Assembly (NCBI GenBank): GCA_001940825.1
Contig: MSGT01000018.1
Location: 1-45,412, forward strand
Origin: Sphaerochaeta sp. Phil3
GTDB taxonomy: Bacteria > Spirochaetota > Spirochaetia > Sphaerochaetales > Sphaerochaetaceae
DNA length: 45,412 nt
Direction of reading: 5' to 3'
Shown: positions 12,921-35,396 of the stretch, piece by piece
How positions within the stretch are numbered: position 1 is the stretch's first letter
How the letters are laid out: every line of letters starts with the position of its first letter
Position numbers and translations under genes: made by a program
Notes under the pieces: generated by a model
Databases searched by the model: none
What the model was told of the DNA's origin: nothing
What the model saw: the letters and a program-made list of their open reading frames with translations, nothing else

Positions 12921-12980
12921 CCGCGCCACACAGCGCCCATCAGCGCCACACAGCGTCCATCAACGCCCTACAGCGAATCC
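12921..12980. repeat. Degenerate 10-bp tandem array
   Basis: Successive blocks CCGCGCCACA, CAGCGCCCAT, CAGCGCCACA, CAGCGTCCAT, CAACGCCCTA and CAGCGAATCC repeat every 10 bp with a stronger 20-bp super-period. The array fills the gap between the E2-like gene and arcA and runs into the last codons of arcA, which are encoded on the opposite strand. Confidence 0.7.
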
Positions 12981-17808: not shown

Positions 17809-17949
17809 ATGATTAAAAGAGATTTCTATATGCAACGACTAATCCACAGCATGTGGAACGGTGAGATAAGCACCCCGTTACAAAATCCAGACCGTTTTAG
17901 TACGGCAAGAGTGGCGAGAGCGTCTAGTTCGCCTAGAAAGACTAGATAG
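17809..17949 (+). pseudogene. 5' stub of a DUF4143-type AAA ATPase gene
   Basis: From ATG 17809 the first 20 codons read MIKRDFYMQRLIHSMWNGEI. This closely resembles the conserved N-terminus of bacterial AAA ATPases of the DUF4143 group, which normally continues with KVITGIRRCGKS (the Walker A). Here homology stops at codon 20 and the frame runs into the 9-bp repeat array, ending at TAG 17947-17949. It is therefore the beginning of a gene whose remainder is lost. The identification is from family pattern memory. Confidence 0.55.
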
Positions 17950-17960
17950 GCTAGAACGTC
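17904..17960. repeat. Degenerate 9-bp tandem array (CTAG type)
   Basis: Units GGCAAGAGT, GGCGAGAGC, GTCTAGTTC, GCCTAGAAA, GACTAGATA, GGCTAGAAC and GTC follow at exactly 9 bp; CTAG recurs at 17924, 17933, 17942 and 17951. Read on the other strand it matches parts of the array at 21589-21678 (for example GACGTTCTAGCC and CTAAAACGGTC), so the two are related and inverted relative to each other. It begins inside the AAA-ATPase stub. Confidence 0.75.
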
Positions 17961-17982
17961 AACTTTCAAATGATTCCAGTTT

Positions 17983-18092
17983 CAAGAAGCTCGCTTCGAA
18001 GGTATTTGAGCCATATTCAAGGAAGCAAACGAAGGATAGTGCTGTGATGCACAGACTGAGTGAAGCAACGCGGAAGATGGTTCAAAGACCGA
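17983..18092. repeat. ~105-bp intergenic repeat, copy A (3' end of ispF)
   Basis: Starts at CAAGAAGCTCG and continues with GGTATTTGAGCC, TATTCAAGGA, CGAAGGATAGT, CTGAG and CAAAGACC in the same order and spacing as 21917-22024, at roughly 80% identity by eye. It includes the ispF stop codon. On the transcribed (minus) strand, GTGC and GCAC form a small stem which in the other copy is GTAC/GTAC, a compensatory change. Confidence 0.7.
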
Positions 18093-18576
18093 GGAGAACA
18101 ACTGCTTGCGCCATGATGGCGGAGCCTGTACCCAGCTCCCCCAGTATTTCCTCCGCAGTCTTTGCCTTCACGCCAACACACGAAGGATCAACTCCAAGAA
18201 GGGATGCAAGACGCTCCCTGATTGCAGTCTTGTAGGGTCCAAGCTTTGGAGACTGGAGGACAACGGTGGTATCCAAGTTGCAAACATGAAAACCACGAGA
18301 AGCAACCGCATTGACGACCTGCGAAAGGAGCTCAGCAGAATCAGCACCGCAATATGACGAGTCGGTATCAGGGAAAAGGGTTCCAATATCATCCATGCCG
18401 GCGGCGCCAAGCATTGCATCAATGATGGCATGGATGAGGACATCACCGTCAGAATGTGCAACACTACCTTTTGGAGAGGGAATCGAAACGCCTCCAACGA
18501 CAAGGTTCCTGCCCTCTTCGAGTCTATGGAGATCCCAACCAGTTCCAACCCTAACGTCAGCAGCCATACCAGTCAT
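18082..18576 (-). CDS. ispF: 2-C-methyl-D-erythritol 2,4-cyclodiphosphate synthase
   Basis: Fifth enzyme of the MEP isoprenoid pathway, forming the cyclic diphosphate with release of CMP. The 164-aa length is typical. Zinc ligands are in GTGWDLHRLEEGR (Asp15, His17) and the His region AHSDGDVLIHAI. Further family blocks are DIGTLFPDTD and the C-terminal KAKTAEEIGELG-type loop (here KAKTAEEILGELGTGSAI). The ATG overlaps the ispD stop as ATGA, so translation is coupled. Its 3' end runs into the ~105-bp repeat. Confidence 0.95.
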   Translation of the reverse strand: MTGMAADVRVGTGWDLHRLEEGRNLVVGGVSIPSPKGSVAHSDGDVLIHAIIDAMLGAAGMDDIGTLFPDTDSSYCGADSAELLSQVVNAVASRGFHVCNLDTTVVLQSPKLGPYKTAIRERLASLLGVDPSCVGVKAKTAEEILGELGTGSAIMAQAVVLLGL

Positions 18577-19953: not shown

Positions 19954-21474
19954 ATGAAAACAAGTGAAAGAGCGTGCGGTGTTCTCATGCACCCTACATC
20001 ATTTCCATCTCCTTACGGGATTGGGGATCTGGGAATAGAATCCAGAAGGATTCTCAGACTTATGGCACAGGCGAACATTCGTCTCTGGCAGATACTGCCA
20101 CTTGGTCCTACGGGCTACGGAGACTCGCCCTACGCTTCACGTTCCTGCTTCGCGGGAAACGAACTGCTCATCGATATAAGATCCTTGAACAACATATGCG
20201 ACGACAACGACATCGGTCTTGTCCTGAATGATGCAATCAAGGACCTTGAAGGCGTAGGATTGGATTGCAGCGCCCGTGTGGACTACAACCAGGTCTATGC
20301 AACGAAGATGGTCGCCCTCAAGAAGATAGCCGGTGCGTTCGCAAGGGGACATGCCCAGGATGTTGATTTCCAAGCATTCTGCAGTGAGAACGCTTGGTGG
20401 CTTGACGACTACGCCCTCTATCAAGGCCTTGTAAACAACTTCAACGACTCACGATGGTTCATGTGGCCACAGGACATCAAGGACCGCAGGAAAAGCGCCA
20501 TGGCCAAATGGACAAAGGATCTTGCGGACGAAATTTCAATCTACAAGGCCCTGCAATACTTCTTCCACTGCCAGTGGAACTCGCTGCACAAATTCGCAAA
20601 CGACCTTGGGATAAAAATAATTGGAGACATCCCAATCTTTGCAGCCGGTGATAGTGTAGACGTTTGGACCAACAGACGACTCTTCAAAATCGATTCCAAA
20701 GGAAACCAAACTGCACTTGCAGGATGCCCGCCTGACGACTTCTGCCCTACGGGACAGCTTTGGGGCAACCCTGTCTACAACTGGAAGGAACATGAAAAGG
20801 ATGATTTCGCATGGTGGAGACGCCGTGTCGAGATGATGTTCAAGATCGTTGACATTCTAAGGATAGACCACTTCCGCGGCTTCGAATCCTACTGGGAGAC
20901 ACCCGCAGGAGAAGAAACCGCCATGAACGGAAAGTGGATGCCAGGACCTGGAATGAAACTACTTGGTCACTTCAAGGGAATGGACATCATCGCAGAAGAC
21001 CTTGGCTTCATGACCCCGGAGGTCCAGCAGCTCAGAGCCGCCACGGAATTCCCAGGCATGAAGATATACCAGTTTGGCTGGGACATCCAGAACGGACGCT
21101 TCGATGCTTCGAACGAATATCTTCCCCACAACTACGAGCAGAACTGCGTGGCATACACAGGCACACACGACAACGAAACGGCCCGTGGCTGGTACAACAG
21201 ACAAAGCGACGAATACAAGGACATCATAAGGCGCTACCTTCAGTGTCCCGACGACGAAGTCGTATGGCAAATGATCCGCACCCTACTTGCCAGCTCAGCC
21301 AAATACGCCATCTTCCCAATGCAGGACATCATGGGCCTTGACAACAGCGCCCGCATGAACGTGCCCTCCACCGTAGGAATCTCCAACTGGTCCTGGCGCA
21401 TGGACCCCAACCAACTTGAAGGCTGGAAACTGGACAGACTTCGCGAATACATCATGCTCTACGGCCGCAGCTGA
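19954..21474 (+). CDS. malQ: 4-alpha-glucanotransferase (amylomaltase, GH77)
   Basis: Transfers maltodextrin segments between alpha-1,4-glucans during maltose/glycogen use. The 506-aa length fits GH77. Conserved parts are GVLMHPTSFPSPYGIGDLG near the N-terminus, WQILPLGPTGYGDSPY, GDIPIFAAGDSVDVW, LRIDHFRGFESYW with the nucleophile Asp, and IIAEDLG with the acid/base Glu, then GTHDNETARGWY. The start is ATG 19954; no SD is present and a -10-like TATAGT is 7 nt upstream. It diverges from carD, and a strong terminator follows its stop. No other maltodextrin genes are adjacent. Confidence 0.95.
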   Translation: MKTSERACGVLMHPTSFPSPYGIGDLGIESRRILRLMAQANIRLWQILPLGPTGYGDSPYASRSCFAGNELLIDIRSLNNICDDNDIGLVLNDAIKDLEGVGLDCSARVDYNQVYATKMVALKKIAGAFARGHAQDVDFQAFCSENAWWLDDYALYQGLVNNFNDSRWFMWPQDIKDRRKSAMAKWTKDLADEISIYKALQYFFHCQWNSLHKFANDLGIKIIGDIPIFAAGDSVDVWTNRRLFKIDSKGNQTALAGCPPDDFCPTGQLWGNPVYNWKEHEKDDFAWWRRRVEMMFKIVDILRIDHFRGFESYWETPAGEETAMNGKWMPGPGMKLLGHFKGMDIIAEDLGFMTPEVQQLRAATEFPGMKIYQFGWDIQNGRFDASNEYLPHNYEQNCVAYTGTHDNETARGWYNRQSDEYKDIIRRYLQCPDDEVVWQMIRTLLASSAKYAIFPMQDIMGLDNSARMNVPSTVGISNWSWRMDPNQLEGWKLDRLREYIMLYGRS

Positions 21475-21529
21475 CACTTTTGGTCCAAGACCGATACCAT
21501 AGCTTTTCAGGCCGATATCCTTGAAAACG

Positions 21530-21574
21530 GATTGCCGACGAAACTCTTTGATTGGTTCGTTGGCAATCTTTTTT
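21530..21574 (+). terminator. Intrinsic terminator of malQ
   Basis: A 13-bp stem (21530-21542 with 21556-21568, one G-U pair), 13-nt loop, then six T residues at 21569-21574. Confidence 0.85.
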
Positions 21575-21588
21575 GCGGCTGAGGCTTT

Positions 21589-21846
21589 CTAGCCTATCTA
21601 GTCACTCCAGCCACTCTGGACGCTCTTGCCGTTCTAGCCTCTCTAGCCTATCTGGACGTTCTAGCCGCTCTAAAACGGTCTAGTTTTAGGAATGCGGGAC
21701 AATCAGGTGCGGTCAGGTACCATCAGGTACACTCAGGTACTCTCTAAAACGCTCTACCTTTATCATGATTCAACGGTATTCAACGGCCCCAAGAGCCCCA
21801 ACAGCCTCGTAAGCCCTAAAAGCCCCAACAGCCCCACCACAAGCCC
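21589..21846. repeat. Mosaic of consecutive 9- and 10-bp tandem arrays
   Basis: This gap holds four successive blocks. (a) 21589-21678: ten 9-bp units of CTAGCCNCT type. (b) 21701-21740: four exact 10-bp units NNTCAGGTAC. (c) 21768-21787: ATTCAACGG(T/C) twice at 10 bp. (d) 21791-21846: about five 9-bp units of ANNAGCCCC, the last unit longer. The units are unrelated in sequence but share the period. No gene is present; frames through the area lack SDs. Block (a) is related to the inverted array at 17904-17960. Confidence 0.8.
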
Positions 21847-21858
21847 AAAAGCATACAA

Positions 21859-21891
21859 AAACGGCCTCCTTCTCAAGAAAGGAAGCCGTCA
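21859..21891 (-). terminator. Intrinsic terminator for the minus-strand ATPase gene
   Basis: ACGGCCTCCTT (21861-21871) and AAGGAAGCCGT (21879-21889) form an 11-position stem with one mismatch. On the minus strand it is followed by a run of five T. It lies downstream of the repeat copy that trails the gene at 22034-22741. Confidence 0.65.
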
Positions 21892-21910
21892 AAAATTCAA
21901 ACATTGCACG

Positions 21911-22027
21911 CAAAGACCAAGAAGCTCGATTCGCAGGTATTTGAGCCGTATTCAAGGACACAAGCGAAGGATAGTACTCCTTGTACAGCCTGAGCGCAGT
22001 GACGATGAAGACGGGTCAAAGACCAAG
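21911..22027. repeat. ~105-bp intergenic repeat, copy B (3' end of the RecA-like gene)
   Basis: Direct repeat of 17983-18092. The body is bounded by two identical 11-mers CAAAGACCAAG at 21911-21921 and 22017-22027. It lies in the predicted 3' untranslated part of the minus-strand transcript, between the stop at 22034 and the terminator at 21859-21891. Confidence 0.7.
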
Positions 22028-22033
22028 AATGGC

Positions 22034-22741
22034 TTACTCGCAGATAAGCATCGTCTTAGGATCAAGGGCCACGCCAGTTGGATGTGGAACCTTCTTGTGG
22101 TGATCCTGGACAACCGTCATGATGACGCGGCTGCGAGCCTCGTTGTAGTGGAGGCCAACAAGAACGTCTATGTCATCGAGGTAGGCGTTGAGGCTTTCAG
22201 GAATGCCGTACTGGTTGCAGTCGTTGTCCTTGCCTGATGGAGAAACGCAGAACCATACTTCAATGTTCATGTCCTGAGCGAACTTCTTTATCTTCTTCAC
22301 ATCATCGGATGATGCAAGGGTGTACTTGTAGCCGTCAAAGAAAACGGCATCGGCCTTGAAGGAGCCCTGTTCTATGAGGGTCTTCAGGCTGGCGAGGATC
22401 TTGTCAACGCCAACGTTCTCCTGGGAGAAATTCATCATGACGCGGTTGGTTCTAATGGTCTGGTACACGTCAAAGGCGTCGTCAAGGCTCTTGAAATCAG
22501 AAATCTCCCTAAAGACCTCCTTGTACCAACTCATTATGTGCTCAACGTTTGCGCCAAATGAAACGTGGATGACGTTCTCGTTTCTAAGAAGCTTGTCTAT
22601 TGCAAGGTGGACCATGCAGGCGGTCTTTCCAACACCATGGCGGGATGCTATGACACCAAGGTTGCCACGACCAAGTCCACCGTTGATGGACTCTTCGAAA
22701 ACTCTTATAGGGCTGTTTTTGATCAGTTCTTCAACTTCCAT
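22034..22741 (-). CDS. RecA/KaiC-fold P-loop ATPase of unknown role
   Basis: A 235-aa protein with Walker A in ASRHGVGKTACM (near residue 40) and Walker B-like hydrophobic strand DAVFFDGYKY. The layout (short N-terminal helix, GGLGRGNLGVIASR, then an ATPase core) resembles RadA/DnaB/KaiC-type domains without the zinc finger or Lon-like part of RadA. Specific function is not recognised. ATG 22741 is chosen because GAGAGGA precedes it; the open frame extends to 22828 without support. It lies about 160 bp downstream of fusA on the same strand. Its transcript probably carries the ~105-bp repeat in its 3' end. Confidence 0.65.
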   Translation of the reverse strand: MEVEELIKNSPIRVFEESINGGLGRGNLGVIASRHGVGKTACMVHLAIDKLLRNENVIHVSFGANVEHIMSWYKEVFREISDFKSLDDAFDVYQTIRTNRVMMNFSQENVGVDKILASLKTLIEQGSFKADAVFFDGYKYTLASSDDVKKIKKFAQDMNIEVWFCVSPSGKDNDCNQYGIPESLNAYLDDIDVLVGLHYNEARSRVIMTVVQDHHKKVPHPTGVALDPKTMLICE

Positions 22742-22902
22742 TGCTATCCTCTCAATTCTTTGTGCAGAGCGGCCACGCCAAAGGGAAAACCCAAGCAGGA
22801 CCGTATGCAAGCGTGCACTGCTATGCACACGACAATTCTAACACGGTGCAGCTCAAAACGCCAACGCAAATCGAACCTGCACCATGAAAACCTAGGCGAA
22901 CA

Positions 22903-35273: not shown

Positions 35274-35396
35274 ACAACTGCGACAGATTCTACAACTGCC
35301 ACAACCACTACAACCTCTACAGATTGGCCACAGATTCCACCACGCTCACATCGCTCACCATGCGCACCTTGCTCACCACACTCACCATTACTACAA
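35274..35396. repeat. Two adjoining degenerate 9-bp tandem arrays
   Basis: 35274-35345: ACAACTGCG, ACAGATTCT, ACAACTGCC, ACAACCACT, ACAACCTCT, ACAGATTGG and further units at 9 bp. 35343-35396: CGCTCACAT, CGCTCACCA, TGCGCACCT, TGCTCACCA, CACTCACCA, TTACTACAA at 9 bp. The arrays fill the gap between the truncated gene and eamA. Frames through them are repetitive and not convincing genes. Confidence 0.8.

Follow-up and report, generated by a model that had tools for sequence, protein, structure and literature searches.

The four short-period tandem arrays found downstream of malQ in this window (that is, in the whole stretch of 45,412 nucleotides analysed here, which is one contig of the 2.36-Mb draft genome of a gut spirochaete) are one copy of a dispersed composite, in which an A array, a cap, a C array, a second cap and an F/G array follow one another. 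This composite occurs at about 30 intergenic places of the genome, mostly just after genes, and among the genomes compared it is restricted to one species. We tentatively prefer to regard such blocks as recognition arrays under constraint in 3' spacers, which may have spread as whole blocks and which would change in length by whole units.

Short intergenic arrays in bacteria are usually ascribed to slippage of a single unit. In the present case, one period is common to several array types, which also keep a conserved order, and within their units the positions that are held can be told from those that are free. Whether a reader protein or a copying process is the source of the genome-wide period becomes testable in this genome, and congeners without the arrays offer a natural before-and-after comparison.

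The array block downstream of malQ and its period

The spacer that bears the arrays (21475-22033, 559 bp) runs from malQ (19954-21474, plus strand), whose closest matches in named genomes come from Sphaerochaetaceae and other Spirochaetia, several of them from rumen or faeces, to a convergent gene on the minus strand (22034-22828) with a weak, below-cut-off match to KaiC-type ATPases. On the plus strand, array A (21588-21668; TRF span 21588-21672) comprises nine 9-bp units TCYRGnCnn, identified by TRF, shuffles and unit statistics, and leads into a cap, CTCTAAAACGGTCTA (21668-21682), which was located by pattern search and recurs in other copies. Array C (21703-21742; TRF span 21699-21740) has four 10-bp units TCAGGTACnn, according to TRF and unit statistics, and its cap, CTCTAAAACGCTCTA (21742-21756), also located by pattern search, is one base off that of array A. 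The F repeat, ATTCAACGGT (21768-21786), detected by TRF, consists of two 10-bp units running into array G (21779-21839; TRF span 21786-21836), in which TRF and unit statistics recognize about six 9-bp units nnAGCCCCA. The whole block sits between two convergent intrinsic terminators predicted by a scan for hairpins and T-runs, namely that of malQ upstream of array A (21530-21574, plus strand) and that of the opposing gene beyond array G (21854-21889, minus strand).

The first-pass annotation had described four back-to-back arrays at this place, and TRF together with shuffling bears this out. In the spacer, the lag-9 score is 32 and the lag-10 score is 22, as compared with best scores of 14 and 13, respectively, in 3000 first-order shuffles, none of which reached the observed values. 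The F repeat is the sole weak member of the four when taken alone, as about 0.7% of spacer shuffles reach its score. For array A, the place and the 9-bp period stand, but the count of ten units given earlier is to be corrected to nine clean units followed by the cap. The earlier view of the units as wholly unrelated does not hold either: arrays A and C both terminate in a near-identical 15-mer, CTCTAAAACG[G/C]TCTA, and their units both start with TC and follow a similar pattern. Because the two caps differ at one base, these arrays are not independent of each other. The window holds a second A array on the minus strand (17904-17962), downstream of ispF. Further short-period intergenic arrays with other units lie at 12923-12975 and 35274-35387, being a 10-bp array of the GCGCC type and a 9-bp succession of ACAACnnCn and CTCACCAnn.

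The shared period of 9-10 bp extends well beyond this locus and proves to be a genome-wide intergenic theme carried by several array families. Genome statistics were taken from about 890 kb of sampled stretches, part of them chosen around the repeat and part not, and scored intergenic segments were counted in observed and shuffled sequence. Self-matches are in excess at lags 9, 10, 18, 20, 27 and 36, with smaller excesses at lags 11 and 12. In the stretches chosen for the repeat, observed and shuffled segments number 43 and 1.6 at lag 9, 24 and 1.8 at lag 10, 41 and 1.2 at lag 18, and 19 and 1.8 at lag 20; in those chosen otherwise, the numbers are 9 and 1.4 at lag 9, and 4 and 0.8 at lag 10. 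Multi-copy families inflate the segment counts at lags 9 and 10, and a count by family gives about six families with 9-bp units and three or four with 10-bp units. The unit types include TCTAGCCnn, TCAGGTACnn, ACAGCGCCnT, nnAGCCCCA, CTCACCAnn, ATGGGnCTC, TnATGCGCCC and CTGTAGCnn. Thus, the enrichment of intergenic DNA at 9-10 bp over shuffled sequence, which the first-pass annotation had put forward as a check, is seen in the sampled stretches, and the lack of a peak that it had named as contrary to its idea is not what was found.

At lag 7, the stretches chosen for the repeat gave 0 segments against 2.6 in shuffled sequence, which leaves no sign of a seven-bp unit length. A small sample of intergenic DNA from congeners (about 9.5 kb) showed no peak (observed and shuffled, 1 and 0.6 at lag 9, and 0 and 0.4 at lag 10), and the congeners and five other relatives have none or one scored segment at lags 9 and 10. 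A literature search found no report of such repeats in Sphaerochaeta.

Dispersal of the block and constraint within its units

What had been taken for an independent local succession of arrays is instead a dispersed block with a fixed order: A, C and G keep the same order and orientation in all array-bearing spacers tabulated from the sample. For most copies, homology with the one in the window starts at the first A units and stops at the last G unit; it runs on beyond the arrays as far as about 21923 in L113 and about 22032 in L114. Gaps between copies include those of 9 or 10 bp, that is, whole-unit differences of the kind expected of VNTRs and slippage. A comparison with 138 related genomes, one per species, gave no match to the block. 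The degenerate A pattern has 73 matches in the host genome, versus 1 for the reversed control, and one match each in two of these 138 genomes. The spacers downstream of malQ in congeners and related genera contain no arrays of this kind; in L032 and L035, which retain the malQ/ATPase pair, the spacer measures about 206 and 71 bp.

Some copies are carried by a MITE-like element of about 560 bp with imperfect terminal inverted repeats (GGCTCTTCACG.../...CGTGAAGAACC), which is present at L120, L118, L116, L135, L132, L138 and L119 and which contains the array block in most of these copies, two being without the A-to-D part. Direct duplications of 8 bp, read by eye, flank four of the copies (TTTTTCTT, AATTTTTA, AAAACATT and AAAACTTT). 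The ends and the duplication length recall ISL3-type elements, and a search for the ISL3 family gave only two short matches. Terminal inverted repeats with a target-site duplication are lacking in the window copy and in the other stand-alone copies, and MITE features are confined to the subset of array copies inside the element. A phage, plasmid or viral origin of the arrays was also considered and found no match.

The positions of a unit are conserved very unequally. Aligned by phase, A units follow the pattern T C (T/C) (A/G) G n C n n. Between neighbouring units, positions 1, 2, 5 and 7 change in 0-10% of comparisons, as against 55-72% for positions 4, 6, 8 and 9. Equal change across the A positions is rejected (chi-square p about 1e-61), and unequal positions are significant in all ten families tested (A and nine others); since units within an array are not independent, these p-values are too small, and the contrast itself is large. 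At position 8, C occurs in 2/93, the free A positions being otherwise close to random. When fixed and free positions are compared across loci, the pair of the window and L114 agrees with the unit constraint, and a second pair gave no clear contrast. A duplicated 9-mer subject to drift alone should vary evenly, as plain slippage in a VNTR would have it, and the strongly uneven variation observed here suggests that the fixed positions are held in place by something. No other single observation argues as strongly against plain slippage. The earlier suggestion of selection or a special process finds its support here, while its reliance on a local succession of distinct units falls away.

These data bear directly on the most credible of the alternatives, which we nevertheless consider rather unlikely, namely a neutral or selfish bloom in which duplication and hitch-hiking on the MITE-like element spread the arrays and slippage altered them. 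The confinement of the composite to one species, the parallel expansion of an unrelated hairpin repeat (e2, described below), the existence of MITE-like copies and the whole-unit indels between copies would all be accommodated. The enrichment of arrays in convergent spacers (19/43, versus 24/168 tandem and 8/67 divergent) would likewise fit, as in such a bloom the arrays would accumulate in 3' spacers through the removal of insertions at other places. However, the unequal conservation of unit positions argues against it, as does the fact that A arrays in tandem spacers run in sense.

Possible roles of the arrays after genes

With neighbouring genes called by a simple codon-usage caller, 15/16 A arrays outside the MITE-like element follow a gene and share its orientation. 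Arrays are bounded by terminators in some copies only, according to the hairpin and T-run scan; the arrays show no replication-strand preference (11/23 on the G-rich strand); predicted RNA structure is unexceptional on both strands (z near 0); and no credible known RNA family was identified, the one sub-threshold match being at chance level and in a coding region. In the window, a predicted strong terminator precedes the block, which may therefore see little transcription.

The fixed and free letters of each unit suggest that a putative factor reads the units one by one. In the recognition-array reading, each unit would be a putative recognition site, and with about 20 of them the block would offer a multivalent platform in a 3' spacer. 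The putative reader would be an oligomeric protein, acting on DNA or on trailer RNA, with 9-10 bases as the spacing of its subunits; if the period is set by this spacing, the letters of the unit can differ while the period stays. The block would have been copied to new places as one piece, in part as a passenger of the MITE-like element, and would become longer or shorter through gain and loss of units. Consistent with this are the many copies in the same order, the homology limited to the arrays, the whole-unit indels and the unequal unit positions, as are the sense bias, the absence from relatives, the MITE-borne copies and the lack of excess RNA structure. Cores and strand preferences differ among array families, which argues against this reading, so that one putative reader would have to be tolerant, or several readers would be needed. 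The terminator ahead of the window block and the clear contrast of fixed and free positions for one pair of loci only likewise weigh against it. A more far-reaching version, which we offer with considerable doubt, is that a small vocabulary of degenerate 9-10-bp units fills 3' spacers in ordered blocks and that at dozens of loci a putative reader uses them to mark or end a transcription unit, the period corresponding to its subunit spacing.

Known rut sites contain much C and little G and are unstructured, and motifs of the form [(YC)N9-13] have been counted among their descriptors (PMC9160355). An unlikely alternative is that the sense arrays form an unstructured trailer with more C than G and a YC in each unit, which would load Rho and end transcription, the period approximating the spacing of Rho subunits. 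Rho is encoded in the genome, the arrays are biased to sense after genes, and the A-C-G composite is C-rich in its sense strand without unusual folding, in these respects resembling rut sites, including the repeated YC (PMC9160355). Rut-like properties were found for the sense strand in 18/23 copies and for the antisense strand in 2/23; the corresponding figures are 19% for stretches after stop codons and 44% for composition-shuffled sequences. However, the full combination (C over G, unstructured, spaced sense YC after a gene) is confined to the A-C-G composite. In tandem spacers, the sense strand of E arrays and of most H arrays is rich in G, and Rho thus cannot be the general answer. In addition, a near-invariant G in the A, G, E and Gc units is left unexplained, some blocks come after predicted intrinsic terminators, the published motif has a period of 11-15 and not 9-10, and rut sites (PMC9160355) are not built as tandem repeats of a fixed unit.

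A coding origin of array A, as a repeat of Ser-[Ser/Gly/Arg]-x that arose at a C-terminus and was dispersed in non-coding copies, is very improbable. At L134:10108-10203, a copy does encode, in frame, the C-terminal end of a PcnB-like poly(A) polymerase, in whose tail the third codon is Gln or Arg only, and many non-coding copies retain an in-frame S-K-T-V-stop at the cap. However, nearly all other copies are without a start codon or a plausible gene in frame, a coding function is impossible for arrays C and E with their 10-bp units, and as a general explanation a protein-coding repeat was rejected, a credible gene being present in one copy only. The PcnB-like gene itself (L134:9010-10203) has a tail of S-G-R/S-G-Q encoded by the A array and ends at the in-frame stop of the cap. 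Helical phasing, by which the common period would set a feature on one face of the DNA and which the first-pass annotation had offered as one possibility, is scarcely tenable: 9-10 bp is near one turn, but with 10.5 bp to the turn each 9-bp repeat falls behind by 51 degrees, which adds up to more than a full turn over nine units, 9-bp arrays outnumber 10-bp ones, and no array averages 10.5 bp.

Heptamer intergenic arrays have been described in Xanthomonas and Nostoc, and three heptanucleotide repeats in Calothrix (PMC4692102). These are the nearest known kind, as they too consist of short degenerate units in the non-coding DNA of particular genomes; in addition, those of Xanthomonas lie close behind the preceding gene, and Calothrix has several units of one length in one organism (PMC4692102). 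As in such families, many intergenic arrays of one unit length occur here above chance, at lags 9 and 10. However, the heptamer arrays have units of 7 rather than 9-10 bp and one unit type per array, mostly in four copies, and they form G-quadruplexes and are not joined into ordered multi-array blocks (PMC4692102). The nearest MITE-borne minisatellite is BrickBuilt of Porphyromonas gingivalis, which is likewise species-specific and intergenic, with about 19 copies; it has one 23-bp unit within a MITE, whereas here there are several 9-10-bp arrays and most copies lie outside the element with inverted ends (PMC4596501).

The features that distinguish the present arrays are the 9-10-bp period, the several unit types in ordered blocks and the constraint inside units. 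Operator and centromere arrays bound by ribbon-helix-helix proteins (met boxes, omega protein heptads) consist of head-to-tail degenerate units with fixed core positions. The present arrays share this architecture of short units, but those arrays occur at one or few loci and have a known protein, as compared with about 30 loci here.

Other composites and the neighbouring hairpin repeat

A second recurring composite (L127:15674-15775 and L131:16376-16541) passes from TnATGCGCCC (10 bp) through ATGGGnCTC (9 bp) to CGCACGGATTA, an 11-bp unit in two copies that forms its last part. J followed by I is another recurring array order in the table of array-bearing spacers from the sample.

Directly after the stop codon of the gene opposing malQ lies a hairpin repeat, e2 (21929-22029, minus strand), which is not part of the arrays; a second window copy is found at 17994-18093 on the same strand. 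This repeat of about 101 nt often occurs 2-4 times in tandem at a period of about 106 bp, in sense with a gene and mostly 0-100 bp past its stop codon, and it has 58 matches in the roughly 890 kb sampled. Among copies placed by BLAST, the adjoining gene has the expected orientation in 18/18, and one more match lies inside a probably spurious ORF. No Rfam match was obtained for e2. An identity as integron attC was rejected, as no integron integrase match exceeded the family cut-off and the weaker matches look like ordinary tyrosine recombinases. The e2 consensus has 21 pairs, 16 of which show compensatory double changes. Finally, e2 is separate from the arrays, and its expansion parallels theirs, with at least 66 copies in the host genome versus 1-11 in 9/10 congeners and three genomes of two other genera.
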